Shown piece by piece: positions 10,267 through 42,651 of a stretch of 46,037 bases of DNA. Position numbers and translations under genes: made by a program. The stretch spans positions 1 to 46,037 of the forward strand of contig WGEY01000033.1 in NCBI GenBank assembly GCA_015492495.1. Direction: 5' to 3'. The notes under the pieces are model-generated. The model was not told the origin of the DNA and made no database searches. It saw only the letters and a program-made list of their open reading frames with translations. How positions within the stretch are numbered: the first letter of the stretch is position 1; every line of letters starts with the position of its first letter. Source of the DNA: Deltaproteobacteria bacterium. GTDB taxonomy: Bacteria > Desulfobacterota > GWC2-55-46 > DRQE01.

Positions 10267-12717
10267 ATGGAGACGAAGAAGAAACTGGTCATGATAGGAA
10301 ACGGCATGGCCGGTATGAAGGCGATAGAGGAGATCATAGACATAAACCCGGATCTCTTCGACATAACCGTATTCGGGGCCGAGAGGCACCCCAACTACAA
10401 CCGCGTGCTCCTCTCCTCCGTGCTGGCCGGTGAGATGACGGTCGAGGACATAATCCTCAACGATGAGGAATGGTATCGCAAAAACAATATCACGCTGCAC
10501 CTCGGCAAGCCCGTGGTCGAGATCCAGCGCGGCTACAGGAAGGTCGTTGCGGCGGATGGAACCACGGCCGCCTACGACTGCCTGGTGATAGCCACGGGCT
10601 CCAAGCCCTTCATACTGCCGCTTCCCGGGGTGGACAAGGAGGGTGTCATAACCTTCCGCGACATCTACGACTGCGAGAGGATGATGGAGGCATCCGCGAG
10701 CTACCGGAAGGCCGCGGTGATAGGCGGCGGGCTCCTGGGTCTCGAGGCGGCCAAGGGGCTCGTGAACCTGGGCATGGAGGTCACGGTCATACACGACCGC
10801 AAGACGCTCATGAACATGCAGCTAGACGAGGTTGCGGGAGAGATGCTCAGAGAAAGCCTCGAAGAACAGGGAATGCGCTTCCGCACCTCGACGCTCACAA
10901 AGAGGATACTCGGCGACGATAGGGTAAGGGGGCTCGAGTTCGAAGACGGTTCCAGGCTCGAGTGCGACATCGTGGTCATGGCCGTTGGCATACGCCCCAA
11001 CAAGGACCTCGCCGAAGGGGCACGGCTTTTCTGTAACAGGGGGATCGTGGTGAACGACTACATGCAGTCCATAACCGACCCCTCGGTGTACGCTGTGGGT
11101 GAATGCGTGGAGCACAGGGGAAAAACCTACGGGCTCGTGGCCCCTCTCTTCGAGCAGGCGCGCATCCTCGCCTACCACATCACCGGACAGGGGCTCAAGA
11201 CGTACACGGGCTCGGTCGTATCCACGAAGCTCAAGGTCTCAGGGGTGGACGTCTTCTCCGCAGGCGACTTCGAGGGCAACGGCTCCTCGGACACGGTCAT
11301 GTACCTGGACCGCAAGGGCGGGATCTACAAGAAGATCGTCATAAAGGACGAGCGCATCATCGGAGCGGTCCTATTCGGCGATACGGCGGACGGCACGCGA
11401 CTCTTCCAGATGATGCAGGACGGAACCGACGTATCCGAACAGCGCTCCACCCTGCTCTTCGGCAACACCATGCTCGGTGACGCCGGCCACTCGGGGCTAG
11501 CTCAGGTGTCAATGATGAGCCCCGACACGATCGTCTGCGGCTGTAACGGGGTTACGAAGAAGATGATAGAGGACGCCGTTGTAAAGCACGGCCTCACCAC
11601 GCGCAAGGAGGTCACCGGATGCACCAAGGCCGCAGGATCCTGCGGCGGCTGCGGTCCGCTGGTGGACCAGATACTCGTCTCGATACTCGGAAGCTCCTTC
11701 GCCCGCTCGGCCAACGCCATGCCGCTTTGCGACTGCACCGAGCTCACGCATGACGAGGTGAAAGAAGAGATCCGCAGAAGGCGCCTTCTCACGGTCGGCG
11801 GGGCGATGCGGGCGCTTGAGTGGAAGGGCGAGGGGTGCGATACCTGCAGGCCCGCGCTCAACTACTACGTGCAGTCCATATGGCCAAAAGAGACGAGTGA
11901 CGATCCGGCATCCAGGCTCGTAAACGAGAGGATGCACGCAAACATCCAGAAGGACGGGACATTCTCCGTGGTCCCGCGCATGTACGGGGGGCTCACGACC
12001 CCTGAGGAGCTGATGAGGATAGCCAGGGTCGCCTCCGAATACAACGTACCGGCCGTAAAGCTCACCGGAGGCCAGAGGATCGACCTCCTGGGCATCAAGA
12101 AGGAAGACCTCACCGCGGTGTGGAGGGCGCTCGGCATGGAGTCGGGCTACGCCTACGCAAAGGCGCTCCGGACGGTGAAGACCTGCGTGGGGAGCCGGTG
12201 GTGCCGCTTCGGGACCCAGGACTCCATGGGGCTCGGCATAAACCTCGAAAAGATGCTCGAACGGGTGTGGGCGCCGGCGAAGCTCAAACTTTCGGTCTCC
12301 GGTTGCCCGCGCAACTGCGCCGAGGCGTCGATAAAGGACCTCGGGATAGTCGGCGTGGACGGCGGATGGGAGATATACTGCGGCGGCAACGGCGGCGTGA
12401 GGGTACGGGTCGCCGAACTCCTGTGCACGGTCCGCGATGCCGACGAGGTCATGGAGATCGCCAAGGCTTACGTGCAGCTCTACCGCGAAGACGCCCACTA
12501 CGGCGAGAGGACCTCGGTGTGGATTGAGCGGGTCGGGCTAGACCGTGTGAAGCGGGCCGTCGTCGATGACCCGCAGTCACGCGGCGCGCTCGCCGCAAGG
12601 CTCGACGAATACATCGAAACGCTCGGTGAAGACCCGTGGAAGGCCCGCATCAGGGAAGAGGAGGAGCGCCCGGGCATGAAACCCATAAAGATCGACGCAA
12701 GGGCTGTGAACGAATGA
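10267..12717 (+). CDS. nirB: NADH-dependent nitrite reductase, large subunit
   Basis: 816 residues, typical NirB size. Domains in order: FAD/NADH oxidoreductase (GNGMAG at 11-16, second dinucleotide fold around 150), a BFD-like [2Fe-2S] region with C424, C426, C459 and C462, then the sulfite/nitrite reductase half-domains with the sirohaem/[4Fe-4S] cysteines C640, C646, C680 and C684 (CVGSRWC and SGCPRNC). It reduces nitrite to ammonium in the cytoplasm at NADH expense, for assimilation or detoxification. Start ATG 10267 follows GAGGTG eight bases upstream. Its last codons overlap the nirD start (ATGA). No nitrate reductase or transporter is nearby. The sigma-54 promoter suggests nitrogen-status control. 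Confidence 0.96.
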   Translation: METKKKLVMIGNGMAGMKAIEEIIDINPDLFDITVFGAERHPNYNRVLLSSVLAGEMTVEDIILNDEEWYRKNNITLHLGKPVVEIQRGYRKVVAADGTTAAYDCLVIATGSKPFILPLPGVDKEGVITFRDIYDCERMMEASASYRKAAVIGGGLLGLEAAKGLVNLGMEVTVIHDRKTLMNMQLDEVAGEMLRESLEEQGMRFRTSTLTKRILGDDRVRGLEFEDGSRLECDIVVMAVGIRPNKDLAEGARLFCNRGIVVNDYMQSITDPSVYAVGECVEHRGKTYGLVAPLFEQARILAYHITGQGLKTYTGSVVSTKLKVSGVDVFSAGDFEGNGSSDTVMYLDRKGGIYKKIVIKDERIIGAVLFGDTADGTRLFQMMQDGTDVSEQRSTLLFGNTMLGDAGHSGLAQVSMMSPDTIVCGCNGVTKKMIEDAVVKHGLTTRKEVTGCTKAAGSCGGCGPLVDQILVSILGSSFARSANAMPLCDCTELTHDEVKEEIRRRRLLTVGGAMRALEWKGEGCDTCRPALNYYVQSIWPKETSDDPASRLVNERMHANIQKDGTFSVVPRMYGGLTTPEELMRIARVASEYNVPAVKLTGGQRIDLLGIKKEDLTAVWRALGMESGYAYAKALRTVKTCVGSRWCRFGTQDSMGLGINLEKMLERVWAPAKLKLSVSGCPRNCAEASIKDLGIVGVDGGWEIYCGGNGGVRVRVAELLCTVRDADEVMEIAKAYVQLYREDAHYGERTSVWIERVGLDRVKRAVVDDPQSRGALAARLDEYIETLGEDPWKARIREEEERPGMKPIKIDARAVNE

Positions 12718-13019
12718 AGTGGCTCAAGGTATGCCGTAAAGACGAGATCCCGGAAAGGGGAGGACGCGCGGTCCTGGCGGGCGGGAGCCGGATAGCCGTC
12801 TTCCGCCTCTCGGACGGGCGCGTAGTGGCGGTCGAGGACCGCTGCCCTCACAAGGAGGGTCCCCTCTCGGACGGCCTCTTGACCGGCGCAACCGTCATCT
12901 GTCCCATGCACCACTGGAAGATAGACCTCGAAAGCGGAAACGCCCTGCCCCCTGATTGCGGTTGCGTGAAGACCTACGAGACCAAGGTGGATGACGGTAT
13001 CGTGTGGCTCAGGCTTTAA
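12714..13019 (+). CDS. nirD: Nitrite reductase small subunit, Rieske-type
   Basis: 101 residues; the ATG at 12714 overlaps the nirB stop by four bases (ATGA), so translation is coupled. The Rieske [2Fe-2S] ligands appear as CPHKEGPL and, 17-18 residues later, CPMHHWKID. The rest is a compact beta fold ending in VWLRL. NirD pairs with NirB; in many bacteria the small subunit has lost its cluster ligands, but here all four (two Cys, two His) are kept. A stem-loop follows directly. Confidence 0.95.
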   Translation: MKWLKVCRKDEIPERGGRAVLAGGSRIAVFRLSDGRVVAVEDRCPHKEGPLSDGLLTGATVICPMHHWKIDLESGNALPPDCGCVKTYETKVDDGIVWLRL

Positions 13020-17094: not shown

Positions 17095-19230
17095 TCAAAT
17101 TAAGGGGTTATCATTGAAGAACCTCTTTATGGCCTCGCCGTTCATCAGGACCTCGGAGGTGAGCCTGTCGACGAGCCTTTCGAGGAGGTCCTTGTTCTTT
17201 GAAATGCAGTCCTCGGTCTCCTCCTGCGCATTTGAAAGGATCTTCTGGATGTCGTCGATGACGTCCTTGCCGGAGGTGATGGCGTAATCCTGAAGCTCCA
17301 CGAGCGTGGTGTTCTTCATTATATCACCGAAGCCGTACTCCACGACCATCTTCTTCGCCTTTGCTGTGGCCTCGACGAGGTCCTGCGAGGCGCCGACCGT
17401 CTTTGCGTCGTCGCCGCACATCTCATCCTCTGCCACGAGCCCGCCCAGAAGCACCCCTATCTCCTTTTCAAGGTCCCTCTTCGTGCAGGTGCTCACCATA
17501 GATTCGTCCCTCGATATGAAGGCGTTGCCGTCCTTGTACGCATCCACGCTCACGAAGACCGGGACCTCGCCGAAGTGGTGCCACATCATTATTATGTGGC
17601 CCGCCTCGTGTACGGCGATGATCCTCTTCTCCTTGTCGGTGAGGGCCTCGGCGCGCTGCACAACGAGCGAACGCGACGCCGGGCGCGCCCTCTGGTGGCT
17701 CCACTCCCTCAGGTTCTCTATCTCCTCCTTCTTGAGGATGGAGAGCGGTGTGATGTTCCTCACGGAAGAAAGAAGGGTCTCCTGCTTGAGGTCCAGCCCG
17801 GAAAGGTTGTCAATGATCTCATCGGCCTCGTCCGCCTGCTTGCCGCTGTGCAGTGCGTTGAATGTGGTGACTATGGCATCCTTCACCGCCTGCTCTATCT
17901 CGGCGCCGGTATAGCCCTGGGAGTTCTCGACGAGCTCTGTAAGGTCGAACCTCGAGGGGTCCTGTCCCCTCCTCTCCAGATGGATGCGGAATATCTCCTC
18001 GCGCTCGTCCGCGCTCGGCAGATCCACGAAGAAGACCTCGTCGTAGCGCCCCTTCCTCCACATCTCCGGGGGCAGGTTCTGGGGGTCGTTCGCCGTGGCG
18101 ATGACGAAGACGGGCTTTTCCTTTTCCTGCAGCCAGGTGATGAAGGTTCCGAAGACCCTCAACTGGGTTCCGGAGTCGCCCTGGAAGCCGGTGACACCGC
18201 CGAAGGCCTTGTCGATTTCGTCTATCCACATTATACAGGGACTTACCGCCTCGGCGAGCTGTATGCACCGCCTTATGTTCTTTTCGGACTCTCCGACGGT
18301 GGAGCCGAAGAGCTTTCCGACGTCCATCCTGAGGAGCGGCAGGTTCCATATCCCGGCGATGGCCTTGCAGCAGAGGCTCTTTCCGGAGCCCGGCACACCA
18401 ATGAGGAGGAGCCCCTTGGGTATCTCCAGGCCGAAGCTCTCTATCTTCTCCCTGCTCAGGCGGAAGACGTGCTCCCTCTCTATGAACCACTTCTTGAGGT
18501 CCTCGAGCCCCCCTATGTGGTCTATGGTCTCCTTGTGGGGATAGTAGTCGAGGATCTTCTGCTTCTTTATGATCTGCTGCTTCTCGTCCTGTATGTACTT
18601 TATGCAGTCCTCGTTCAATACACCGTTGTTCTGGCTTATGGCCTTCCTGACCACCCGCTTGATGTTGTCCATGGAGAGCCCCTGGAGCGACTTATAGAGG
18701 ATGGACTTGGTTGAGGCGTGCCACGTCTCCGGGATGAGGTGGCCGTAGGTGTTCGTGACCATCTCCTCGATCTCGTCGTAATCCGGCAGCGAGAGCTCGA
18801 GCACCACGATGTCCTCCTCGAGCTCGGGCGGTATTTCCCTCAACGTCGGAGAGAGTATGCAGATCGTGTTCTCGGAACGCTGCTCGTCTATGACGGCCGG
18901 AAGGTCCCTGAACCTTCTGAGGAACTCGTGGGAGGCGAAGTAGCCGGCGATGTCCTTAAGAAGGAATATGTTGTTCTCCTCGTCGCTCTTGGTGATCCTG
19001 TCCTCGATGGCCTTGAGTATCTTCTCCCTGCCTATCTGTTCCCTCTTCTTCCTGTCCCCGCTGTAGAGCCCGCGGGATACCGACCAGCACCAGAAGGTGG
19101 CCCCCATGGACTTGGCGAGGTTCTCAAGTATCCTCTCCACCCTTCTCTCCTCGAAGGATACGAGCCACAGTATCGGGTACCTGGCCTGCACGTGTATCTT
19201 TATCTCGTTTTCAAAGCTCTGTCTGTTCAT
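17095..19230 (-). CDS. Ycf46-like AAA+ ATPase fused to an FtsH-type M41 peptidase
   Basis: 711 residues. Residues 1-220 resemble the degenerate N-terminal module of Ycf46 (KIHVQARYPILWLVSFEERR, then WSVSRGL). The active AAA+ module follows: Walker A GVPGSGKS 278-285, a pore-loop-like KLFGSTVGES 306-315, Walker B IMWIDE 333-338, sensor ATAND 378-382, arginine-finger region RKGRYDE. Where Ycf46 proteins end (~500), a zinc peptidase continues: HEAGH 541-545 with GASQDLVEAT supplying D617 as third ligand, as in FtsH. FtsH's two N-terminal membrane helices are absent, so this should be a soluble ATP-dependent protease. It heads the operon and has its own promoter. It is unlike ordinary FtsH in its AAA module and domain order. 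Confidence 0.88.
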   Translation of the reverse strand: MNRQSFENEIKIHVQARYPILWLVSFEERRVERILENLAKSMGATFWCWSVSRGLYSGDRKKREQIGREKILKAIEDRITKSDEENNIFLLKDIAGYFASHEFLRRFRDLPAVIDEQRSENTICILSPTLREIPPELEEDIVVLELSLPDYDEIEEMVTNTYGHLIPETWHASTKSILYKSLQGLSMDNIKRVVRKAISQNNGVLNEDCIKYIQDEKQQIIKKQKILDYYPHKETIDHIGGLEDLKKWFIEREHVFRLSREKIESFGLEIPKGLLLIGVPGSGKSLCCKAIAGIWNLPLLRMDVGKLFGSTVGESEKNIRRCIQLAEAVSPCIMWIDEIDKAFGGVTGFQGDSGTQLRVFGTFITWLQEKEKPVFVIATANDPQNLPPEMWRKGRYDEVFFVDLPSADEREEIFRIHLERRGQDPSRFDLTELVENSQGYTGAEIEQAVKDAIVTTFNALHSGKQADEADEIIDNLSGLDLKQETLLSSVRNITPLSILKKEEIENLREWSHQRARPASRSLVVQRAEALTDKEKRIIAVHEAGHIIMMWHHFGEVPVFVSVDAYKDGNAFISRDESMVSTCTKRDLEKEIGVLLGGLVAEDEMCGDDAKTVGASQDLVEATAKAKKMVVEYGFGDIMKNTTLVELQDYAITSGKDVIDDIQKILSNAQEETEDCISKNKDLLERLVDRLTSEVLMNGEAIKRFFNDNPLI

Positions 19231-19582: not shown

Positions 19583-19595
19583 CAAAATATGAACA
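19579..19595 (+). promoter_or_regulatory. Operator 2, overlapping the -10 box and the start codon
   Basis: TGTTCA-AAATA-TGAACA is an inverted repeat with 6-base arms. It covers the last four bases of the -10 element, the transcript start and the ATG itself, an ideal position for repression by a dimeric regulator. Confidence 0.72.
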
Positions 19596-20224
19596 ATAAT
19601 AACGGCCGTAACAACGAGCAGGACGACTACAGGTCACTGCTCCTTCTTGACGAGATATCCAGGAACAAGGACCTGACACAGCGGGACCTCAGCAAAAACC
19701 TCGGCATCGCGCTGGGGCTCATAAACTCCTACATAAAGAACCTCGCCTCAAAGGGCTACATCACCGTAGCCGCCATACCGAGGAAGAGGTACAGATATTA
19801 TCTCACCCCCAAGGGTTTCAGGGAAAAGACACGCCTCACCTACGAGCACCTCCGAAACTTCACGAACCTCTACCGCGTGGCCAGGAGGGACTTCAGAACG
19901 CTCTTCCGCCAGATAGAGGACTCCGATATAAAAAGGATCGCCTTCTGCGGAAAGGACGAGGTCACAGAAATAGCCTACCTCTCGCTACAGGAGGTCACGC
20001 TGGAGCTCGTGGGTGTGGCGGACGACGTGGAAAAGGGGAAACGCTTCTTTGACTACGACATCATTGCGCTCGAGGATCTGGCACCCCTTGAACCGGAGCT
20101 CGTGGTAATCACCTCCTTTCAGAGGGGGGACGAGCTTAAAAGGGCTCTCATGGATACCGGCATAGAGGCCGGCAGGATATGCGACATAAGCAGCGGCGGA
20201 TGGCTCAGGAAGCTGGAAAAATGA
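19589..20224 (+). CDS. EPS-type winged-helix regulator with C-terminal Rossmann-like domain
   Basis: 211 residues. An Asn-rich start (MNNNNGRNNEQ) leads into a winged helix at about 13-85 (DEISRNKDLTQRDLSKNLGIALG as helix-turn-helix, then a wing ending YYLTPKGFREKTRL), which resembles the MarR-like EPS-associated regulators found at the head of polysaccharide clusters. Residues about 108-200 look like an alternating alpha/beta nucleotide- or sugar-binding fold (IKRIAFCGKDEVTEIAYLSL, LVGVADD, LVVITSFQ), which the short family members lack. The start codon lies within operator 2 and no Shine-Dalgarno exists. It probably represses its own promoter and responds to a pathway metabolite. Its end overlaps an ATG, and the dehydrogenase gene follows. 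Confidence 0.78.
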   Translation: MNNNNGRNNEQDDYRSLLLLDEISRNKDLTQRDLSKNLGIALGLINSYIKNLASKGYITVAAIPRKRYRYYLTPKGFREKTRLTYEHLRNFTNLYRVARRDFRTLFRQIEDSDIKRIAFCGKDEVTEIAYLSLQEVTLELVGVADDVEKGKRFFDYDIIALEDLAPLEPELVVITSFQRGDELKRALMDTGIEAGRICDISSGGWLRKLEK

Positions 20225-20226
20225 TT

Positions 20227-20233
20227 AAGGAGG
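20227..20233 (+). promoter_or_regulatory. Shine-Dalgarno that selects the GTG start of the dehydrogenase
   Basis: AAGGAGG, five bases before GTG 20239. An ATG at 20221 overlaps the previous stop, but this strong site lies downstream of it and favours the GTG. Confidence 0.6.
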
Positions 20234-20238
20234 AAAAG

Positions 20239-21564
20239 GTGGCTGAAAACAAAAACCTGGACGGACTCATAAGGAAGACAGAGGACAGGACGGCCCGGAT
20301 AGGCATAATCGGGATGGGATACGTGGGACTTCCGCTCGTCCTCAGGTTCTGCGAGGAGGGCTTCGGTGTCACCGGCTTCGACGTCGACCCCGAGAAGGTG
20401 GAGACACTCACGGCCGGCAGATCATACATAAGACACATCCCATCCGAATCGATCAAGGGCTGGGTGGACCAGGGACGGTTCGAGGCCACGACCGAGATGT
20501 CGCGGCTCGGGGAGGTGGATGCGATAATAATATGCGTGCCCACTCCGCTTACCCGGACGAGGGAACCGGACATGAGGTTCGTCAAGGGCACGGCCTCAAC
20601 CATCGCGGAAAACCTCCGTCCAGGGCACCTCGTATCACTCGAGTCCACGACGTACCCGGGTACCACCGTTGAGGTGCTTCTACCGGAGCTCGAAAGGACC
20701 GGGCTCAGGGCGGGCGAGGACTTCTTCCTCGTCTTCAGCCCCGAGAGGGAGGACCCTGGAAGAAAGGACTTCTCGACAAAGACCATACCCAAGGTGGTCG
20801 GCGGGACGAGCCCCTGCTGCCTCAAGGCCGGGCGCACCCTCTACTCGAAGGTCGTCGACAGGGTCATCGAGGTCTCATCAACGCAGGCTGCCGAGATGAC
20901 CAAGCTCCTCGAGAACATATACAGGTGCGTGAACATCGCCCTCATGAACGAGCTCAAGATGCTCTGCGACAGGATGGGCATAGACATATGGGAGGTGATA
21001 GAGGCATCCAAGACAAAGCCCTTCGGCTTTCAGCCCTTCTACCCCGGTCCGGGCCTCGGCGGCCACTGCATACCCATAGACCCCTTCTACCTCACCTGGA
21101 AGGCGAGGCAGTTCGACTTCTCGACAAGATTCATAGAGCTTGCGGGCGAGATAAACACCTCCATGCCCTACTACGTGGTGAACAAGGTCGCCGAAGGCCT
21201 CAACCGCCACGGCAAGCCGCTCAAGGGCTCGCGGATACTCGTCCTCGGCGTTGCGTACAAAAAGGACGTCGACGACATGAGGGAGTCGCCGGCGGTCCAC
21301 ATAATAGAGCTCCTCAAAGAAAGGGGAGCCGTTGTGGACTACAACGACCCGTTCGTTCCGGCCATACCGAAGCTCAGGGGACACGACCTCGAGATGACCT
21401 CCACCGCACTCGGCGAAGAGGCGATGGAGCAGTACGACTGCGTGCTCATAGCAACGGACCACTCCTCTTACGATTACGGGTGGATCGTTGAAAGGAGCAG
21501 GCTCGTGGTGGACACAAGGGGTGCCACGGCCGGCATGAGGAGCGAAAAGATAATAAGGGCATGA
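20239..21564 (+). CDS. UDP-GlcNAc/ManNAc-type nucleotide-sugar 6-dehydrogenase
   Basis: 441 residues from GTG 20239 (ATG 20221 would add six). The N-terminal NAD-binding domain has GIIGMGYVGLPLV; the central part has STTYPGT and PEREDPG; the catalytic cysteine is in GGHCIPIDPFYL, and the C-terminal domain has LGVAYKKDVDDMRESP. The PFYPGPGLGGHCIP form is that of the WbpA/WecC group, which oxidises UDP-N-acetylhexosamines to uronic acids, rather than UDP-glucose dehydrogenase. It would provide an acidic sugar for the polysaccharide. It is the first biosynthetic gene behind the regulator and is cotranscribed with it. No partner epimerase for ManNAcA is obvious here. Confidence 0.88.
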   Translation: MAENKNLDGLIRKTEDRTARIGIIGMGYVGLPLVLRFCEEGFGVTGFDVDPEKVETLTAGRSYIRHIPSESIKGWVDQGRFEATTEMSRLGEVDAIIICVPTPLTRTREPDMRFVKGTASTIAENLRPGHLVSLESTTYPGTTVEVLLPELERTGLRAGEDFFLVFSPEREDPGRKDFSTKTIPKVVGGTSPCCLKAGRTLYSKVVDRVIEVSSTQAAEMTKLLENIYRCVNIALMNELKMLCDRMGIDIWEVIEASKTKPFGFQPFYPGPGLGGHCIPIDPFYLTWKARQFDFSTRFIELAGEINTSMPYYVVNKVAEGLNRHGKPLKGSRILVLGVAYKKDVDDMRESPAVHIIELLKERGAVVDYNDPFVPAIPKLRGHDLEMTSTALGEEAMEQYDCVLIATDHSSYDYGWIVERSRLVVDTRGATAGMRSEKIIRA

Positions 21565-21591
21565 AAAAACAAACTGCCGTGAGGTGTACTA

Positions 21592-22161
21592 ATGATAAGA
21601 CGATTTGTATCTGATTACATTTCCGAGCTCAAGGAGGTCCTCGAGAGGGTCCCGGTGGAGGGGTTCGAGCAGATGGTGGAGCTAATAATGGACGCCTACG
21701 AGGATGGACGCTCGATATTCATAATGGGCAACGGCGGAAGCGGCTCGACGGCGTCGCACTTCGCCTGCGACATAAACAAGGGCGCGTCATTCGGCCGCGA
21801 AAAGAGGTTCCGGGTCATCTGCCTGAACGACAACGTGCCCACCATGCTTGCATACTCCAACGACCTGTCCTATGAAGACGTATTCGCCGAACAGCTCAAG
21901 AACTTCCTCGCCCCGGGCGACGTCGTCATAGGCATATCGGGAAGCGGCAACTCCGAAAACGTCCTCAGGGCCGTGGGATACGCAAGGGACAAAGGGGCGA
22001 GGACGATAGGGCTCGTGGGGTTCGACGGCGGCAGGCTCGCCCGCCTGGTGGATGTACCGATAGTCGTCGATGTAAACGACATGCAGAAGGTCGAAGACAT
22101 CCATCTCGTAATAACCCACATGGTCATGCAGGTCGTCTGCAAAAGACTCTGCGGGCGGTGA
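21592..22161 (+). CDS. SIS-domain sugar isomerase, GmhA-like
   Basis: 189 residues, one SIS domain. The phosphosugar-binding motifs are GNGGSGSTASHFACD (46-60) and ISGSGNSENVLRA (115-127); the late QKVEDIHLVITH (165-176) matches the GmhA active-site region. GmhA makes D-glycero-D-manno-heptose 7-phosphate from sedoheptulose 7-phosphate. The other heptose genes (hddA/hldE, gmhB) are not in the window, so another phosphosugar is possible. Start ATG 21592 has GAGGTG six bases upstream, and the gene follows the dehydrogenase by 27 bases in the same transcript. Confidence 0.82.
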   Translation: MIRRFVSDYISELKEVLERVPVEGFEQMVELIMDAYEDGRSIFIMGNGGSGSTASHFACDINKGASFGREKRFRVICLNDNVPTMLAYSNDLSYEDVFAEQLKNFLAPGDVVIGISGSGNSENVLRAVGYARDKGARTIGLVGFDGGRLARLVDVPIVVDVNDMQKVEDIHLVITHMVMQVVCKRLCGR

Positions 22162-22204
22162 GACGGCCGGCGAAAAGGGCTTTGCATAAAAGGTGCATGG
22201 CAAG

Positions 22205-23677
22205 ATGGATACCGTTCAGAGGATAGCCAAGAACACCGGTGTACTGTTCGCGGCCCAGGTTGCGGGCTATGCGATGGGTTTCTTCTACATCATGTACACC
22301 GCGCGCTATCTCGGCGCATCGGGCTTCGGCGTGCTCTCCTTCGCCCTCGCCTTTACCGCCATATTCGGCATACTTACGGACCTGGGGCTTCAGCCCCTCA
22401 CAGTAAGGGAGGTGGCGAGGAAACGGGAGCTCGCTCCGGTGTTCCTTTCAAACCTCTCTGCCATGAAGCTTCTCCTCTCCATCGTAACGCTCGCGCTCAT
22501 CGCCATTACGGTGAACCTGATGGGTTACTCCGGCGAGACGGCAACGGTCGTCTATATCGTCGCTCTCTCGGTGGTCGTGAATTCCTTTACCACGATGCTT
22601 TACTCGATCTTCCAGGCCTACGAGAGCATGGAGTACCAGTCCGCCGGGCACCTACTGAACAGCGTATTGATGCTCGGCGGAGCGGCCGTGGCCATAAAGG
22701 CGGGGACGGGGGTCAGGGGCTTTGCGCTGCTCTACCTTGCGGCTGCGGCGGCCTGCCTCGTCTACGGGATAGTGATTCTCTACGCGAAGTTTCCGGAGGT
22801 CTTTTCCGGGTTGAGAGGACGCAAGGCCATGGTGGAGCTCTCATTCTGGAAGGAAACCCTGAAGGAGTCCCTGCCCTTCGGCCTGGGGGTCTTTTTCATG
22901 GTGATATTTTACTGGGTGGACTCTGTGATGCTTTCGGTCATGAAGGGGGATTCGGCGGTCGGCTGGTACAACGCGGCATACAGGATAGTAATGGTCCTCC
23001 TCTTCATACCCCATGCGTTCATCGCGGCCATCTACCCGGTGATGTCCGTCTTCTATAAGACCTCCGAAGAGTCTTTGAGGTCGGCACACGAAAGGTCCTT
23101 CAAGTACCTGACCATCATAGGCATACCGATCGCAGTGGCAACCACCATCCTTGCACGCAGGATGATCCTCATGATATTCGGTGTTGAATATACGAGCTCG
23201 GTACTGCCCCTACAGATACTCGCCTGGTCGGTCGTATTCATATTCATGAGCATCACCTTCGGCAACCTCTTCAACTGCCTCGACAGACAGGCCGTTGTAA
23301 CGAAGATAACGGGTGTCTGTGTCGTTGCGAACGTCGTCTTGAACATCCTGCTGATCCCGCGTTACAGCCTCGTAGGGGCAAGCATTGCAACCGTATTGAC
23401 CGAGGCCGTATCCTTGATACTCTGCTTTGTCTGGGGCTACAGGATCGGCTACAGCATCCCGGGAAGGAGACTCTCGGGCATTCTTGCACGGGTGCTGATC
23501 TCGAGTGTACTTATGGGTCTCTACATAGCGCTCTTTCACAATATGAACCTCATCGCACTGGTACCATCCGCGGCGATAATATACTTCCTCATCCTGTACA
23601 TCAGCAACGGCATAGACAAAGAGGATATCTCTCTGCTCCAGAGCGCGGTGCTGAGGAACAGTAATGTGAGGAGATAG
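22205..23677 (+). CDS. Wzx-type polysaccharide flippase
   Basis: 490 residues from ATG 22205, which has AGGTG nine bases upstream; a GTG at 22193 is less likely. The protein is hydrophobic throughout with about 12-14 membrane helices and begins with the family's usual NTGVLFAAQVAGYAMGFFYIMYTARYLG block. It belongs to the MOP superfamily polysaccharide exporters, which flip undecaprenyl-linked repeat units across the inner membrane. Its presence implies a Wzx/Wzy-type pathway, yet no Wzy polymerase or Wzz/Wzc protein is visible here. A basic end (LRNSNVRR) is cytosolic. Confidence 0.9.
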   Translation: MDTVQRIAKNTGVLFAAQVAGYAMGFFYIMYTARYLGASGFGVLSFALAFTAIFGILTDLGLQPLTVREVARKRELAPVFLSNLSAMKLLLSIVTLALIAITVNLMGYSGETATVVYIVALSVVVNSFTTMLYSIFQAYESMEYQSAGHLLNSVLMLGGAAVAIKAGTGVRGFALLYLAAAAACLVYGIVILYAKFPEVFSGLRGRKAMVELSFWKETLKESLPFGLGVFFMVIFYWVDSVMLSVMKGDSAVGWYNAAYRIVMVLLFIPHAFIAAIYPVMSVFYKTSEESLRSAHERSFKYLTIIGIPIAVATTILARRMILMIFGVEYTSSVLPLQILAWSVVFIFMSITFGNLFNCLDRQAVVTKITGVCVVANVVLNILLIPRYSLVGASIATVLTEAVSLILCFVWGYRIGYSIPGRRLSGILARVLISSVLMGLYIALFHNMNLIALVPSAAIIYFLILYISNGIDKEDISLLQSAVLRNSNVRR

Positions 23678-23681
23678 GACC

Positions 23682-24755
23682 ATGGAGCCCTTGGGCATAG
23701 CCGGCAGGATCGGCAACGGCATAAGGAAGACCATATGCGGCCTGGAAAATCTCATCCGCAGGGCATCCGGCGAATCGCTCAGACCGCGGTGGGTGGTCTT
23801 TGAGCTCACCGACAGGTGCAACTCCAGGTGCACGCATTGCAGTATCTGGAAGGGCAAGAGCAGAAAAGGCGAGCTGACGGCGGATGAAATAGAACAGGTC
23901 TTCAGTGACGGCCTTTTCAAGGATACGGAATACATTCAGGTCTCGGGCGGAGAACCAACGCTGAGGGACGACCTCGAAGAGGTCATCCTGAGAATACACA
24001 GGGCGCTGCCCGGCGCCACCATACAGTTGAGCACCAACGGGCTTCTGCCGGAAAAGGTGTTGAAGGTAGCCAGGGCTGCCTTAAAGAACGGGATCAACTT
24101 CTACGTCGGGGTCTCTCTCGACGGCATAGGCGAGGCGCACGACAGGATAAGAGGGATCAGGGGCAACTTCGATAAGGCCGACCGGCTGCTTCACGAGCTG
24201 GTCGCGCTCAGAAGTACCACCGGCGGCAGGCTCCATGTCTCTGCAGGCATTGTGGTATCGGACCTCACGCTCGAAAGCCTCGGGCCCGTAAGGGAGTACG
24301 CACGCAGGCTCGGCATAGAGCTCACCGAGGCATGGTACAACGAGTGCAGCTTCTACGGCAACGAGGGTGAGAACGCATTCAGCGCGAACCTGACCGATGC
24401 GATAAGGTCCCAGCCGCCCTCGCCGCTTAAGGAGCTCTGGCTCAGGGAGCTGGACGGAAGGCCCATCAAGTTCCCGTGCTTCGCCATGCATACCTTCTGC
24501 GTCATCAAGTGTAACGGCGATATCGTGCCGTGTCTGAACCTCTTCGATGAGTCGGCAGGTAACGTGAGGGAAATGACCCCGACGGAGATATGGCACAGCC
24601 CGGAGATGAAGAGGGTAAGGCAGAAGGTAAAGGACTGCCGTGGATGCCTGAACTCCTGGGGTGCAGGCTGGAGCCTTGAGACGAGCTATTACCAAAACCT
24701 CCTGTTCTATCTCAAACATCCGATCATCACCTTAAGGATGCTCCGTGAGGGTTGA
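23682..24755 (+). CDS. Radical-SAM protein with SPASM-like C-terminus
   Basis: 357 residues. The cluster motif is C46-x3-C50-x2-C53 (CNSRCTHC), followed by QVSGGEPTLRDD for SAM binding and VGVSLDGIGEAHDRIRG typical of the SPASM/Twitch group. Late cysteines (PCFAMHTFCVIKCNGDIVPC, then CRGC) can bind an auxiliary cluster. Such proteins modify peptides or small molecules; those in polysaccharide loci have no proven reaction. The start is ATG 23682 with GAGGAG upstream, four bases after the flippase stop. It may modify a sugar, a lipid carrier or a co-encoded peptide, but no small precursor peptide gene is seen beside it. Confidence 0.82.
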   Translation: MEPLGIAGRIGNGIRKTICGLENLIRRASGESLRPRWVVFELTDRCNSRCTHCSIWKGKSRKGELTADEIEQVFSDGLFKDTEYIQVSGGEPTLRDDLEEVILRIHRALPGATIQLSTNGLLPEKVLKVARAALKNGINFYVGVSLDGIGEAHDRIRGIRGNFDKADRLLHELVALRSTTGGRLHVSAGIVVSDLTLESLGPVREYARRLGIELTEAWYNECSFYGNEGENAFSANLTDAIRSQPPSPLKELWLRELDGRPIKFPCFAMHTFCVIKCNGDIVPCLNLFDESAGNVREMTPTEIWHSPEMKRVRQKVKDCRGCLNSWGAGWSLETSYYQNLLFYLKHPIITLRMLREG

Positions 24756-24758
24756 GTC

Positions 24759-25550
24759 ATGCTAAAGGGGATAACAAACTTTGTTTCAAGATATCTGTAT
24801 GCCGCAATGTCGTGCATCTACCTCTTTGCAGCGGGCTTCCTCTTCGTAAGGAACCGCCTGCTCATATACAAGATATCTTCACACTTCGGCTACCCGGAGG
24901 TCAACATCCCGGTGGTGGATCCCGCTTCAATCATCCCTTTGAAGAATCTGGAAGATTCCCCTGTACAGGTGCTCGAACCGATAGGAAGAGACGGTAACGT
25001 ATCAGCGGTTGAGCTGTTTATCATCAACCTTTTCATAAAGGCCATGAATCCTGTGAAGATCTTTGAGATGGGGACATTCGACGGCAGAACGACACTTAAT
25101 ATGGCCCGCAACTCTGCGGACCATGCCAGGATATGGACAATAGACCTGCCCAGAGAGAGGCTGGACAGCACCAAATTGCCCATCGTTCCTCTGGACAGGC
25201 AATTCATTGACAAACCATCGTCGGGCACATGCTTTGCGGGAAGAGAAGAAGAGAAAAAGATCACCCAGCTATACGGAGATACCGCCACATATGACTTCAG
25301 CCCCTTTTTCTCATCCATGGACCTCGTCTTCATCGATGCCTCGCATTCTTATGAGTATGTGTTGAACGACTCCAGAATAGCCCTGAAGCTGTTGAAGGAT
25401 AAAAAAGGGGTGATCATATGGCATGACTACATGATGTGGGAAGGTGTGACAAGGGCACTGAAAGAGCTCTATTCGACAGAACCGGAGTTCAAGGACATCA
25501 GACACATAGAGGGGACAAGCCTCGCTTGCCTCGTCAGGGGCTGGGGGTGA
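24759..25550 (+). CDS. Membrane-anchored class I SAM methyltransferase
   Basis: 263 residues. A hydrophobic stretch at about 15-33 would anchor it to the inner membrane. The Rossmann core shows motif I as IFEMGTFDGRTT, motif II as IWTIDLP, and LVFIDASHSYEYVLNDSRIALKLL followed by GVIIWHDY, which resembles the Methyltransf_24 group of polysaccharide clusters. It probably O-methylates a sugar. It starts three bases after the preceding radical-SAM gene. This gene and the next few are less GC-rich than the earlier cluster genes, as is usual for variable polysaccharide genes. Confidence 0.78.
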   Translation: MLKGITNFVSRYLYAAMSCIYLFAAGFLFVRNRLLIYKISSHFGYPEVNIPVVDPASIIPLKNLEDSPVQVLEPIGRDGNVSAVELFIINLFIKAMNPVKIFEMGTFDGRTTLNMARNSADHARIWTIDLPRERLDSTKLPIVPLDRQFIDKPSSGTCFAGREEEKKITQLYGDTATYDFSPFFSSMDLVFIDASHSYEYVLNDSRIALKLLKDKKGVIIWHDYMMWEGVTRALKELYSTEPEFKDIRHIEGTSLACLVRGWG

Positions 25551-25627
25551 GCCTGCCCGAAGACGCATATGCGCATGGATGAGCACATACTGAAAAACAC
25601 GTAAGGCGATTACGGAGGACAAGGGAT

Positions 25628-26278
25628 CTGCTTAAGAAGATATACCGCGAACTCATCGGAAAGTACAGCCTGGGCGGACTGCTCGCAAGGGAGCTCTCCG
25701 GACGCTGGACCATACTCGATGTGGGCTGCGGCCGGCACTCCTCGCTTACCGGCATAAACAAGGGGAGCCTTAAGGTCGGGCTCGACCACTACGAACCGTA
25801 CATACAGAGGAGCAGGCACGCAGGCGTTCACGACCATTACGTGATAGGCGATGCAAGGAGGCTGCCGTTCAGGACCGGCTCGTTCGACTGCGCGGTTGCA
25901 ACAGAGATACTCGAGCACATGGAAAAAAAGGACGGCGTGGAGATGATAGCCGAGATGGAGAGGGTCGCGAGGAAAAAGATAATACTGACCACCCCCAACG
26001 GCTTTCTGCCGACCGCACCCGGACCGGAGGATAACCCCGATGAGGAACACCTTTCGGGCTGGACCGCAGGCGAGCTCGAGGCCATGGGCTTCAAGGTATA
26101 CGGTTTCAGCGGCCCCAAGGGCCTGTGGACCATAAGGAACGGCCGGGCCGTGCTGCGGTTCGTTCCGCGCAGGCCGCATCTTCTCTCCGCGGTCGCCTCC
26201 GACTTAGCGGGCCTTTTCGTCCATAACAGGCCCGCCAGCGCGTTCCAGCTCTTCTTCGTAAAGGAGCTCAACGGCTGA
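25628..26278 (+). CDS. Class I SAM methyltransferase, start uncertain (CTG or frameshift)
   Basis: About 216 residues. Motif I is TILDVGCGRHSSL; a later DARRLPFRTGSFDCAVATEILEHM and KKIILTTPNG complete a Methyltransf_11-type core. Coding sequence clearly begins before the first in-frame GTG (25721, inside motif I). Upstream, no ATG, GTG or TTG exists in frame back to a stop at 25580. Two readings are possible: a CTG start at 25628, with GGAGG nine bases upstream, or an ATG at 25569 in another frame joined by a one-base slip in the A5 run at 25593-25597, which would give a plausible basic N-terminus. The gene lies in the polysaccharide operon and may methylate a sugar. Confidence 0.75.
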   Translation: MLKKIYRELIGKYSLGGLLARELSGRWTILDVGCGRHSSLTGINKGSLKVGLDHYEPYIQRSRHAGVHDHYVIGDARRLPFRTGSFDCAVATEILEHMEKKDGVEMIAEMERVARKKIILTTPNGFLPTAPGPEDNPDEEHLSGWTAGELEAMGFKVYGFSGPKGLWTIRNGRAVLRFVPRRPHLLSAVASDLAGLFVHNRPASAFQLFFVKELNG

Positions 26279-26280
26279 AG

Positions 26281-27366
26281 ATGAAAAAGCTCAAGGTGAC
26301 ATTCATATTGCCGGACGTGGACGTCTCGGGCGGGGTCAAGGCGGTCCTCGAATTCTCGAACCACCTCATATCGAGAGGACACGACGTGACGGTGGTCTAC
26401 CCGCTACTGCCCATGAGCGGGGGCGGGGGATGGTACAACCCCGGGGTCATGCTGAGAAGGGGACGCGGGCTCGGATCAAACATCCGTGCGGGCAACTCCG
26501 TCGACTGGTTCGACTACAGGGGCAACCTCGTGAGGGCCCCAACCCTTGCCGAAAAACATGTCCCGGACGGAGACGTCGTTGTGGCCACGTGGTGGGAGAC
26601 GGCGTACTACGTGAAGAGGTACGCAGGGAGCAAGGGGGAAAAGTTCTACCTGGTCCAGCACTACGAGGTATGGGGCGGGCCGAAGAAGGACGTGGACATG
26701 ACCTACAGGCTGGGGCTCTGGAATGTCGTCAACTCGAGCTGGCTCAAAGAGATCCTCGAAAAGGAGATAGGAGCGCCCGTCGAAGCGCTCGTGCCGCATG
26801 CGCCGGACCTGGACCAGTTCTACCCGGAGAGCCGAAGAGAAGGCTCGGACACCGTCCGGGTCCTCATACCGTACCGCGACATAGAGTGGAAGGGGATCGA
26901 GGACGGGGTGAGGGCCTTCGAGATCGCAAGGAAACGCCGCCCGGAGCTCCGGATGGTCATGTTCGGACCCCGCAGAGGCAGGGACGCGCCGGAGTACGCG
27001 GAGTTTCACGAGAACCCGTCGCGCGACGAGCTCAGAAGGATATACAACTCCTGCGATATATTCGTCTTTCCCAGCCGATGCGAGGGGTTCGGGATGCCTC
27101 CCATGGAGGCCATGGCCTGCCGGTGCGCCGTGGTCACGACAAGGGTCGGGGCGGTGCCGGACTACACCATAGACGGAGAGACCGCGCTCGTCTGTCCACC
27201 ACGCTCACCCGAGGCCATGGCCGAGTGCATCGTGAGGCTCGCAGAGGACGAAGGTCTGCGCACGAGGATAGCACAGGGAGGACACAGGCACATAACCTCC
27301 AACTTCAGCTGGGCCAGGTCCACGGAGATGCTCGAAGAGGTGTTTTTAAGGATACTTGAGAGATGA
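26281..27366 (+). CDS. GT4-family glycosyltransferase
   Basis: 361 residues with a GT-B fold. It opens LKVTFILPDVDVSGGVKAVLEF; the donor-binding signature is E-x7-E in SRCEGFGMPPMEAM, followed by RVGAVPDYTIDGETALV. No membrane segment; it should act at the cytosolic face of the inner membrane and use a nucleotide sugar with retention of configuration. Donor and acceptor are unknown. ATG 26281 comes two bases after the methyltransferase stop, and its own stop overlaps the next start (ATGA), so the genes are translationally coupled. Confidence 0.9.
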   Translation: MKKLKVTFILPDVDVSGGVKAVLEFSNHLISRGHDVTVVYPLLPMSGGGGWYNPGVMLRRGRGLGSNIRAGNSVDWFDYRGNLVRAPTLAEKHVPDGDVVVATWWETAYYVKRYAGSKGEKFYLVQHYEVWGGPKKDVDMTYRLGLWNVVNSSWLKEILEKEIGAPVEALVPHAPDLDQFYPESRREGSDTVRVLIPYRDIEWKGIEDGVRAFEIARKRRPELRMVMFGPRRGRDAPEYAEFHENPSRDELRRIYNSCDIFVFPSRCEGFGMPPMEAMACRCAVVTTRVGAVPDYTIDGETALVCPPRSPEAMAECIVRLAEDEGLRTRIAQGGHRHITSNFSWARSTEMLEEVFLRILER

Positions 27367-28325
27367 GAAAAGAACCGCTTGTATCCGTGATAATACCCTG
27401 CTACAACGGGGAGCGGTTCATCCGCGGCGCCATAGAGAGCGTCATCGCACAATCATACGAAAACTGGGAGCTCATCGTGGTCAACGACGCCTCCACGGAC
27501 GCATCGGGCGACATCGTTAGGGAATATACGCGCGACAACAGGATAAGGCTCATTGAAAACGAACGTAACACCGGCATACCGGGGACGAAGAACAGGGGGG
27601 TTCTGGCATCGAGGGGTGAGTACATCGCGTTCCTCGACCAGGACGACCTGTGGATGACGGAGAAGCTCGCCCTGCAGATAGAGGCGTTCGAAGGGAACGA
27701 GGGGATCGGGGTTGTGTGCACGGGCATGATATTCACCGACGAAGACCTCAATCAAGTGAACATATTCCCGGGCTTCGACGATTCGGATCAGAGAGGGATG
27801 CTCAAGAACCTCTACATTGCCCCGATAAACTCCTCGAGCATCATGATGATACGGCGTGACTGTGCGGCCGCAAGCGGACCGTTCGACGAATCGCTCAAGG
27901 GCTGGGACGACTACGAGCTCCTGATGCGGCTCGCCACAGGCTGGCGCGTTGCGTACGTTAAAAAGCCGCTCGTAAAAAAAAGGCTTCACCGTTCGAGCGC
28001 GCAACGCTCGAGCGATGTCATCGAAGAGACCGAAAGGGTCTTCGAGAAGATACTCGAGCTGCACCCCTTTCTCGCCCGGTACAGGGACGAAAGGGAAGCA
28101 GCCCACCTCTTCAACGAATCGGTCGTCCTCATGGGTGAAGGACGGAAAGAGACCGCCCGCAGGATGATCAGGAGGTGCATCGGGCTCAAACCCCTGCAAG
28201 CGAGGAACTGGGTCCTCTACCTCATATCCATGCTCCCGGGCCGCTCCCCGGCAAGGGTGGTAGAGGCCGTCTTCCGCGCAACCGGCAGGACAAAACTCAT
28301 CCTACACAGACGGAGGTACGCATGA
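27363..28325 (+). CDS. GT2-family glycosyltransferase
   Basis: 320 residues with a GT-A fold: VSVIIPCYNGERFI, VNDASTDASGD, and the metal-binding region FLDQDDLWM. A KGWDDYELLMRLA motif closes the catalytic part and the basic C-terminal third is helical without clear membrane spans. It adds one sugar to the growing repeat unit. The start overlaps the previous stop and its stop overlaps the epimerase start, both as ATGA. Specificity is unknown. Confidence 0.9.
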   Translation: MRKEPLVSVIIPCYNGERFIRGAIESVIAQSYENWELIVVNDASTDASGDIVREYTRDNRIRLIENERNTGIPGTKNRGVLASRGEYIAFLDQDDLWMTEKLALQIEAFEGNEGIGVVCTGMIFTDEDLNQVNIFPGFDDSDQRGMLKNLYIAPINSSSIMMIRRDCAAASGPFDESLKGWDDYELLMRLATGWRVAYVKKPLVKKRLHRSSAQRSSDVIEETERVFEKILELHPFLARYRDEREAAHLFNESVVLMGEGRKETARRMIRRCIGLKPLQARNWVLYLISMLPGRSPARVVEAVFRATGRTKLILHRRRYA

Positions 28326-29275
28326 AGATACTGGTAACCGGAGGGGCGGGGTTCATCGGGTCGAACGTGGTCGATCTTTACGTAAGGGAAGGGCACGAGG
28401 TCGTGGTCGTGGACGATCTCTCCTCGGGCAAGGAGGAGAATCTGAACCCCAAGGCCCGGTTCTACAGATGCGACATACGCTCCGCAGAGATGAGAAAGAT
28501 CCTTGAGACCGAAAGGCCCGACGTGGTAAACCACCACGCGGCCCAGATATCCGTACCCGCTTCGGTCGAGGACCCGGTCTTCGACCTGGATATAAACGTC
28601 CGGGGGTTCTTGAACGTCATCGAGGCCGCAAGGACCGCGGGGGTGCGCAAGGTCATATTCATATCATCGGGCGGGGCGATCTACGGGGAGGCGGAGGAGT
28701 ATCCCACGGGCGAAGACTACAGGCCGAAGCCCCTCTCGCCGTACGCCATAACAAAGTCCGTTGCAGAGGACTACCTCTTCTTCTACAACCACACCTACGG
28801 GCTCGACTACACGGTGCTCAGGTATTCGAACATCTACGGACCGCGCCAGATCCCCCACGGCGAGGCCGGGGTGGTGGCGATATTCATGGACAGGCTCATA
28901 CAGAGAAGGCCCTGTACCGTATACCGCTTCCCGGAAGATCCGCGGGGGATGCTGCGGGACTACTGCTACGTGGGGGATGTGGCGAGGGCGAACCTCGCGG
29001 CCCTTGAAAGGGGCAGCCTCGGGGCGTTCAACATAGCGACAGGCATCGCCACGCACACGCTCGATCTCTTCAACACCATCTACGATGAGCTGAAGAAGAG
29101 GGTCCCGGACCTTCCCCCCTCTCTCGGGGAACCTGACACTGGACCTGCAAGGCCGGGCGACATAAAGAGGAGCTGCCTCAGGATAGAAAGGGCCCGTGAG
29201 GGCCTCGGCTGGAGCCCCGAGGTCCCGCTCGAGGAGGGGATAAGGCGTACCCTCTCCTGGAGGCTCGGGGCATAG
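28322..29275 (+). CDS. NAD-dependent epimerase, UDP-glucose 4-epimerase-like (extended SDR)
   Basis: 317 residues. GGAGFIG (7-13) binds NAD; the catalytic triad is S116 in ISSGGAIYG plus Y141 and K145 in SPYAITK. The RYSNIYGPRQ and DYCYVGDVARAN blocks are those of GalE-like 4-epimerases. It would interconvert UDP-Glc/UDP-Gal, the N-acetyl forms, or a uronic acid made by the upstream dehydrogenase. The ATGA overlap with the preceding transferase sets the start. A small insertion region around PRPGDIKRSCLRIERA is typical of the family. Confidence 0.88.
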   Translation: MKILVTGGAGFIGSNVVDLYVREGHEVVVVDDLSSGKEENLNPKARFYRCDIRSAEMRKILETERPDVVNHHAAQISVPASVEDPVFDLDINVRGFLNVIEAARTAGVRKVIFISSGGAIYGEAEEYPTGEDYRPKPLSPYAITKSVAEDYLFFYNHTYGLDYTVLRYSNIYGPRQIPHGEAGVVAIFMDRLIQRRPCTVYRFPEDPRGMLRDYCYVGDVARANLAALERGSLGAFNIATGIATHTLDLFNTIYDELKKRVPDLPPSLGEPDTGPARPGDIKRSCLRIERAREGLGWSPEVPLEEGIRRTLSWRLGA

Positions 29276-29287
29276 ACGATACGTGCC

Positions 29288-30220
29288 ATGAACAGAGATG
29301 ACAAAAGACCGCTCGTCTCCATCATAACCCCGTCATACAACCAGGGGGAATACATAGAGGAGACGATAAGGAGCGTGCTTTCGCAGGACTACCCCAGGAT
29401 AGAGCTCATAGTCGTTGACGGCGGCTCCACGGACAATACGCTCGATGTGCTCAGAAGATACGGGGAAAGGCTCAGGTGGGTGTCCGAAAGGGACAGGGGG
29501 CAGTCCGACGCCATAAACAAGGGGGCAGCGATGGCCTCCGGCGAGATCCTGGCCTGGCTGAACTCGGATGACACCTACCTCGAGGGCGCCGTAAGGAAGG
29601 CCGTCGAGTTCTTCGACTCCCACCCCGACGTAGGGGTGGTGTACGGCAAGAGCTACTACACGGACCCTTCTGGCAGGGTGGTGGGTGAATACCCAGTGGC
29701 CCCCTTCGACCCGGGGAGGCTTGCGGTTACGAACTTCATCTGCCAGCCGTCCACCTTCTTCAGAAAGATGGTATGGGATGCCGTAGGCGGCCTGGACCTC
29801 TCGCTCCATTACGCAATGGACTACGACCTCTGGATACGGATGGCGGCACAGGCGGACTTCGGCTACCTGGACGAGTTCCTCTCCACCTACAGGCTCCACG
29901 GCCAGTCGAAGACCGTCTCCCCGGCCCACGCCCTCTCGCTGCAGCGCGAGATCCTCGATACCGTGGTGAGGCACTACAGATGGGCCCCGGCGAACAGGGT
30001 CTACGGGTACTGCCACCACCTCGCAGAGTACATGCTGCCCGGAGGGCTTGCGAGGATAAAGACGCTTACGGTCCTTTTATCGCTCATGCTCCTGCCCATA
30101 AAGTATATGATCTCAAACAGGGGAATGGTAAGGATCGAAGACGTGAAGATGATAACGCCCGGGAACATGAAAAAGCTCTTCAAGGACTGGATAGAGGTCT
30201 CAACGGGATACCGGCCATGA
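29288..30220 (+). CDS. GT2-family glycosyltransferase
   Basis: 310 residues: SIITPSYNQGEYIEETI, VVDGGSTDNT, then ILAWLNSDDTYLEG as the metal-binding motif, and MDYDLWIRMA in the acceptor region. The LNSDDTY and ICQPSTFFRK forms are typical of capsule and O-antigen transferases. A moderately hydrophobic stretch near 255-275 may associate with the membrane. Its stop overlaps the next ATG (ATGA). Sugar specificity unknown. Confidence 0.9.
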   Translation: MNRDDKRPLVSIITPSYNQGEYIEETIRSVLSQDYPRIELIVVDGGSTDNTLDVLRRYGERLRWVSERDRGQSDAINKGAAMASGEILAWLNSDDTYLEGAVRKAVEFFDSHPDVGVVYGKSYYTDPSGRVVGEYPVAPFDPGRLAVTNFICQPSTFFRKMVWDAVGGLDLSLHYAMDYDLWIRMAAQADFGYLDEFLSTYRLHGQSKTVSPAHALSLQREILDTVVRHYRWAPANRVYGYCHHLAEYMLPGGLARIKTLTVLLSLMLLPIKYMISNRGMVRIEDVKMITPGNMKKLFKDWIEVSTGYRP

Positions 30221-31344: not shown

Positions 31345-31416
31345 GGCATAACGGCCCGGGACGGGTGGCGGGCGATCGATGATCCCCGAGGGAGGCTTCA
31401 AAGGGATATCCAAGTG

Positions 31417-32484: not shown

Positions 32485-32513
32485 TCAAGGAAACCCTGAT
32501 TTGTTGCCCGTCT

Positions 32514-32696
32514 CGCCATTGCAAGCGGAGCGAAGCGGTCCCAGATAGCTTCACCGGTTCATGCAACACGGGATCGCTTCGGGCCTTCGGCCCTCGCGAT
32601 GACATTAAGGAGGCGTCATCGCGGTGAAGCACCGAAAGGGAAGTCGTGCACGGCGACCTTGCGAATCGCCATCGCAAGCGGAGCGAAGCGATCTCC
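32514..32696. repeat. Cluster of degenerate REP/MITE-like repeats
   Basis: Two direct copies of CGCCATYGCAAGCGGAGCGA followed by AGCG (32514-32540 and 32667-32696) flank an inverted copy with GATCGCTTCGGGCCTTCGGC (32570-32604) and a weaker copy beginning CGTCATCGCGG (32613-32640). The unit resembles the widespread short element built on GAGCGAAGC-type cores. Adjacent opposite copies can form a long hairpin. The gap carries no credible gene. Confidence 0.7.
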
Positions 32697-32772
32697 AAGC
32701 GCCTGTTTTCTTGAAGATGAGATGCCTTTCTTCCATTCGCGACGATGTAAAAAGGAGAGTAGAACCGAGACC

Positions 32773-40651: not shown

Positions 40652-40653
40652 CC

Positions 40654-42393: not shown

Positions 42394-42450
42394 GAACAGA
42401 GGGAGACAAGAATTGAACATGGTCATAGCAGCAAGGGCGGAGGCAACCAA

Positions 42451-42527
42451 ATGATCCCCCTAAGGAATGCAAGCGCCTGGCTGAAGTCGACTTCTCGATT
42501 GCTGCCGTTTCAAAGCACTCGACGCGA
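42451..42527 (+). pseudogene. Relic of the 5' end of a second DUF1156 methylase gene
   Basis: Aligned by eye with the methylase start at 43684, 55 of 66 bases match after the first codons (from AAGGAATGCAA to AAAGCACTCG). Eight of the eleven differences are synonymous in the methylase frame, so this is the start of a diverged homologue, not a recent copy. Two extra bases after the ATG break the frame. It keeps its own Shine-Dalgarno (GGCGGAGG) 58 bases after herA. Beyond 42527 the similarity stops. Confidence 0.75.
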
Positions 42528-42651
42528 GTTGAATGCCACGCAGATATAAAAGTGGCTTACTATCACTTATAGGAAAACGTCATGACTCGGGCGATGCAAG
42601 TGCGAAAGTGTAAGGATGAAGTAATGTACGGCATATACAGGAGCAAACCTA

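Follow-up and report, generated by a model that had tools for sequence, protein, structure and literature searches.

Which motor drives an M41 zinc peptidase that has no membrane anchor? The question is raised by a 711-residue protein encoded in the 46,037-nucleotide stretch of DNA analysed here (the window), which a preliminary description had read as a Ycf46-like ATPase joined to a peptidase of the FtsH type. In the M41 proteases known to us the peptidase is paired with one type of AAA module and is membrane-anchored. Here the same peptidase stands on another motor, together with a second AAA domain, predicted to be inactive, and without an anchor. Ycf46 and Ycf35 are conserved in plastids and cyanobacteria, and we know of no molecular function for either.

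The protein is best explained as a soluble zinc protease that depends on ATP, with a novel architecture among AAA+ metalloproteases. The novelty lies in this architecture and not in a new kind of chemistry. Beyond the preliminary description, the analysis added a degenerate N-terminal AAA domain, a conserved operon headed by the gene, and the spread of the fusion among related genomes. By titles and hit counts, no description of a Ycf46-FtsH fusion was apparent in the open-access literature, and no co-mention of "AAA protease" with DUF1257 was found there.

Domain layout and the AAA motor

The coordinates of the gene, its domains and its neighbours are given in Table 1. The plus strand of the same interval contains stops, and the ORF reads on the minus strand only. 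Pfam placed AAA at residues 274-403 (3.8e-31), with a weak match to the AAA lid, and Peptidase_M41 at residues 530-701 (1.2e-19; 71.4 bits, cut-off 29.9). The Walker A motif is GVPGSGKS (278-285) and Walker B ends in WIDE (335-338). The highest 19-residue Kyte-Doolittle mean was 1.31, compared with 1.99 and 2.35 for the genome's own two FtsH proteins; the protein thus has no membrane helix, as had been claimed. An AlphaFold model of the full-length monomer was of moderate confidence (pLDDT 76, pTM 0.56; residues 564-581 below 50).

Table 1. Location of the Ycf46-M41 fusion gene, its domains and the downstream genes in the window
Feature	Coordinates	Strand	Remarks
Ycf46-M41 fusion gene, 711 aa	17095..19230	(-), 19230 -> 17095, ATG start	single uninterrupted ORF
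Parts of the fusion protein			degenerate AAA 1-225; active AAA ~234-456; Ycf46 C-terminal segment to ~520; M41 525-711 (predicted)
Degenerate N-terminal AAA domain, residues 1-228	18547..19230	(-)	predicted AAA fold without Walker A
M41 peptidase domain, residues 521-711	17095..17670	(-)	HEAGH 541-545, D617
DUF1257 (Ycf35)-like protein, 113 aa	16743..17084	(-)	profile-profile and iterated HMM
DUF2997-like protein, 61 aa	16530..16715	(-)	PF11211 E 0.0018, under cut-off; iterated HMM
NrdG-like radical-SAM/4Fe-4S protein, 191 aa	15943..16518	(-)	
Hsp70-like protein, 932 aa	13148..15946	(-)	440-residue N-terminal region without Pfam match

The AAA module was scored against two HMMs, one built from the AAA segments of unfused Ycf46 sequences in named genomes, almost all of them from beyond the phylum of the window, and the other from FtsH alone. 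It reached 324.6 bits against the Ycf46 HMM versus 101.4 bits against the FtsH HMM. A second Ycf46 HMM, built from distant members only, gave 290.5 bits. In a maximum-likelihood tree of AAA modules, the fused proteins grouped with Ycf46 (100/100) and FtsH formed a clade of its own (100/99). With these scores and this placement, the proposed Ycf46-type motor was upheld; the outcome named beforehand as speaking against it, a better score of the AAA module to FtsH than to Ycf46, did not occur.

The Ycf46 plan that had been traced over the N-terminal ~500 residues was likewise borne out. Residues 5-520 aligned over the full length of unfused Ycf46 proteins from cyanobacteria, Planctomycetota and Sumerlaeota, mostly at 38-45% identity. 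Like Ycf46 (Slr0374 of Synechocystis, the product of plastid ycf46), the fusion has the same degenerate N-terminal domain and has DUF1257 and DUF2997 genes as neighbours. Ordinary Ycf46, however, stops at ~500 residues, where the fusion goes on to add the M41 domain.

The catalytic residues of the AAA module, namely Lys284 and the following Ser in Walker A, D337 and E338 in Walker B, sensor-1 N381, and R392 and R395, were invariant in all 45 fused proteins. In the pore loop, FtsH has F-V-G, with Phe in 59 of 59 proteins, versus T-V-G with Thr311 in 45 of 45 fused proteins; unfused Ycf46 mostly has Leu at this position. Phe308, three residues before Thr311, is invariant in the fused proteins and is Phe or Tyr in 86 of 93 unfused Ycf46, and from its position could substitute for the FtsH pore-loop Phe. 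Because the aromatic residue of the FtsH pore is replaced by Thr, processive threading is uncertain, and threading of substrates by the fusion is plausible but not certain.

The AAA model of IetA, an anti-phage AAA ATPase, matched residues 260-512 (110.2 bits; 117 bits in a second scan), but 110.2 bits is far under the NCBIfam cut-off of 510. No gene for an IetS-type protease was recognised among the operon neighbours of the fusion. With nothing beyond this weak match from the AAA domain, a defence-system reading of the fusion was rejected.

The N-terminal and M41 domains

Pfam matched no family to residues 1-228, and a Walker A motif, looked for in the same domain, was absent. Nevertheless, an AlphaFold model of the domain, built on 33 sequences with and without the fusion, was confident (pLDDT 91, pTM 0.85), and its best 50 PDB matches were all AAA+ proteins (TRIP13, Vps4, RFC, RuvB, Orc and others; TM ~0.5-0.6). 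Within the full-length model, the region superposed on p97 D1 with Z ~13 and an rmsd of 3.4-3.6 A over 200 residues. Residues 1-225 share 24-32% identity with the N-terminal domains of Ycf46. Since the AAA fold predicted for residues 2-221 lacks Walker A, the best reading of Ycf46 itself is two AAA domains in tandem, the first of which would be dead, with the fusion appending M41 after the live second AAA. The order along the chain would then be dead AAA, live AAA, M41. Like p97/Cdc48, the fusion has two AAA folds in series, and residues 2-516 of the model align along D1-D2 (Z ~13). Unlike p97/Cdc48, its first AAA has no Walker A, and a built-in peptidase takes the place of a separate chamber.

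In the alignment with FtsH, HEAGH (541-545) and D617 (in GASQDL) coincide with the HExxH motif and the third-ligand Asp. HExxH occurs as HEAGH, HEIGH, HEAAH or HESGH among the fused proteins; HExxH and D617 are invariant across those aligned. The predicted M41 part superposed on 2di4, the isolated FtsH protease domain, with Z 18.5 and an rmsd of 2.9 A over 167 residues. This fold match bears in part on the second outcome named beforehand as adverse, a modelled peptidase site unable to bind zinc. The Pfam score, the conserved ligands and the FtsH alignment agree with the M41 peptidase bearing HEAGH and D617 that had been described, and by analogy with FtsH the domain would carry out zinc-dependent proteolysis.

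The two proteins otherwise differ: the fusion has no transmembrane helices, another AAA family, an extra degenerate AAA, Thr for the pore Phe, and shortened M41 loops, with ~13 residues missing after GFG and several in the IIPRG strand. In a tree of M41 domains, those of the fused proteins were monophyletic (100/100) and separated by a long branch from the 58 M41 domains of FtsH. Because of this long branch and the two shortenings, the specificity or the oligomer packing of the fused M41 may differ from that of FtsH. Among the fused proteins the M41 domain shows 55-70% identity, and the whole protein 71-81%.

Operon and distribution

The fusion gene heads an operon, followed on the same strand by the genes of the 113-, 61-, 191- and 932-residue proteins (Table 1); successive genes lie some 10-30 bases apart or overlap slightly. 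The 113-residue protein alone had no Pfam DUF1257 (PF06868) match; profile-profile comparison of its family with true DUF1257 gave 97% (E 1.1e-10), and an iterated HMM seeded with true DUF1257 recovered the gene in 44 of the 45 loci of fused proteins. DUF2997 was recovered by an iterated HMM in 42 of the 45. Gene order was identical in the 20 fused loci examined, one contig stopping short of the radical-SAM gene. Further named fused loci had the same order as far as their contigs extend, except for one insertion: ~2.6 kb lies between the DUF2997 and radical-SAM genes, elsewhere close neighbours, at L128:7566-10182. In three loci (L118:4391-7275, L127:9739-12334 and L139:9249-12112) the Hsp70-like gene appears as two overlapping ORFs, possibly through a frameshift, a sequencing error or a genuine split. 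The DUF1257-like gene was found in 42 of the 59 related genomes. Its presence and that of the fusion rarely disagree, and contig breaks may account for some of the disagreements.

Unfused Ycf46 shares these neighbours. DUF1257 adjoins it or lies near in 31 of the 93 loci fetched, DUF1257 and DUF2997 both in 28 of the 93, and the pair neighbours unfused Ycf46 in several phyla, sometimes also with Hsp70-like, HEAT-repeat and radical-SAM genes. The association of Ycf46, Ycf35 and DUF2997 therefore predates the M41 fusion or is independent of it. In cyanobacteria, duf2997-ycf35-fed7 is kept as a cluster (PMC4284462). One unfused Ycf46 operon has a protein with a sulfatase-modifying-factor domain between the radical-SAM and DUF1257 genes (L088:4327-6201, minus strand). 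In L080 and L081, HEAT-repeat proteins are encoded near Hsp70-like genes.

It had also been suggested that plastid and cyanobacterial Ycf46 works with a separate peptidase. Neither the gene neighbourhood nor the M41 profile gave support for this. The flanks fetched around unfused Ycf46 (at most 6-7 kb on either side, shorter where a contig ends) contained no M41 gene; the one exception, L112, is a locus of FtsH that had been picked up by its AAA match and does not belong to Ycf46. Cyanobacteria also encode stand-alone M41-like proteins of 241-254 residues that are marginal to Pfam M41 (E 6e-4 to 7e-3), at G449:C163:176237-176551, G440:C87:19594-19899 and G450:C74:18927-19244. These were considered as a lost partner and rejected, since a profile of the fused M41 finds FtsH and not them.

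Matches to the fusion at or below 1e-40 were present in 44 of the 59 related genomes, nearly all of them fused over the full length and 71-81% identical; about 43 of the 59 carry the fusion. Among the exceptions, G058 has only an unfused Ycf46 relative (33% identity), G030 has the gene divided between two contigs, and in a few further genomes it runs off the contig end. In a sample of 395 genomes of the phylum, the three genomes G100, G117 and G151, which lie outside the class, also carry the fusion; other strong matches there aligned to ~residue 533 only and were mostly open frames of ~500 residues. The named GTDB genomes gave at least 27 matches at 70-81% identity, many on the same contigs as in the 59-genome set, and two of them end before the M41 domain. 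Their carriers are metagenome-assembled genomes titled mostly Deltaproteobacteria, with some Nitrospirae/Nitrospiria, one Desulfuromonadales and one "bacterium". The other 53 matches listed are Ycf46 aligned within residues 1-540 only, from Cyanobacteria, Planctomycetota, Sumerlaeota, Armatimonadota, Verrucomicrobia and one Deferrisomatales bin. Among the matches listed from 117 cyanobacterial, 149 planctomycetal and 40 sumerlaeotal genomes, none passes query residue 552. Six peptide patterns, run against IMG/VR contigs, revealed no viral carrier.

On this distribution, the fusion looks like a single, lineage-specific event. Nearly all fusion-bearing relatives examined also have one or two canonical FtsH genes; the fusion is therefore an addition and not a replacement. 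One 1611-residue ORF (L094:6001-10833, minus strand) has Ycf46 at its C-terminus behind 1120 residues without a Pfam match and is possibly another Ycf46 fusion. Planctomycetal Ycf46 inside open frames of 952 and 1494 residues may resemble it.

Elsewhere in the window, a NirB-like nitrite/sulfite reductase and, after it, a Rieske protein are encoded at 10267-13019 (+), convergent with the Hsp70-like gene. A gene run at 19589-34224 (+) resembles surface-polysaccharide synthesis, with Pfam confirming a winged-helix regulator (19589-20224) and a glycosyltransferase (29773-31344). At 36067-43680 (+) stands a row of an SNF2/NO-VEIN helicase (best PADLOC model HmaA, also DrmD-like), SIR2, HerA and a PDC-S19 protein, which is likely an anti-phage island.

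Proposed mechanism and alternatives

The fusion is probably a soluble, hexameric, ATP-dependent zinc protease with a Ycf46 motor, to which the operon partners would supply or condition clients. By analogy with FtsH and p97, an inactive AAA ring (1-225) and an active AAA ring (234-456) would be stacked on an M41 protease ring, like a p97 stack with its proteolytic chamber built in. The Ycf46 motor, in place of that of FtsH, would then drive the delivery of clients into the M41 chamber by ATP hydrolysis. The roles of the partners and the nature of the clients are more speculative. DUF1257/Ycf35 and DUF2997 may be small adaptors or substrates, and the Hsp70-like protein a chaperone that hands over clients. 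The radical-SAM protein may modify a client or an adaptor, or be a client itself.

The main alternative, although distinctly less probable, is that Ycf46 stays a remodelling ATPase and that the M41 domain makes single regulated cuts, for client maturation or adaptor release, with no processive degradation. The lack of an FtsH-type pore aromatic in the fused proteins, and mostly also in unfused Ycf46, is consistent with such limited cutting, as is the occurrence of unfused Ycf46 with the same DUF1257 and DUF2997 neighbours and no adjacent M41 gene. However, M41 peptidases usually work downstream of an AAA pore, and the catalytic residues of the second AAA (D2) and of M41 are retained together across the family.

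A catalytically silent M41 domain, kept as a scaffold for oligomerisation as in plant FtsHi subunits, is improbable. FtsHi motor complexes, which contain non-proteolytic M41 folds, were among the Foldseek fold matches, and the M41 domain diverges faster than the protein as a whole. A scaffold would not need HExxH and D617, yet both are invariant in the aligned fused proteins.

That the protein is an ordinary FtsH diverged after losing its membrane helices is very improbable. FtsH_fam (TIGR01241) was its best NCBIfam match, no Ycf46 model being returned in that scan, and Foldseek ranked FtsH first. Its 173.8 bits, however, are far under the FtsH cut-off of 600, residues 1-225 resemble the N-terminal domains of Ycf46, and the AAA comparison (325 versus 101 bits, and the tree) rules this reading out. 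An assembly artefact of metagenome bins would fit the metagenome-derived origin of the carriers among the named GTDB genomes, but can be dismissed, since the same in-frame fusion of ~710 residues recurs in dozens of genomes from different projects at 71-81% identity.

We therefore return to the soluble protease driven by Ycf46 and to what it would mean for Ycf46 itself. No description of the molecular activity of Ycf46 was found in the open-access literature. According to work cited in PMC7496141, inactivating ycf46 (slr0374) in Synechocystis reportedly reduces the extracellular activity of carbonic anhydrase, and the slr0374 operon responds to many stresses; the primary paper (Planta 2015) is cited in PMC12172450.

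The fusion offers a handle on the function of Ycf46. Given a natural fusion to a protease and a constant operon that also includes Hsp70-like and radical-SAM genes, the Ycf46 and Ycf35 families, annotated as of unknown function, gain partners that can be tested. Tentatively, and with somewhat less assurance than the protease itself, the chain of dead AAA, live AAA and M41 may represent a new class of soluble ATP-dependent metalloprotease and be the proteolytic form of a chaperone module made up of Ycf46 and Ycf35, in which Ycf46 powers client remodelling. If so, Ycf46 of cyanobacteria and plastids would drive a client-remodelling system, otherwise unknown, that involves Ycf35 and DUF2997.
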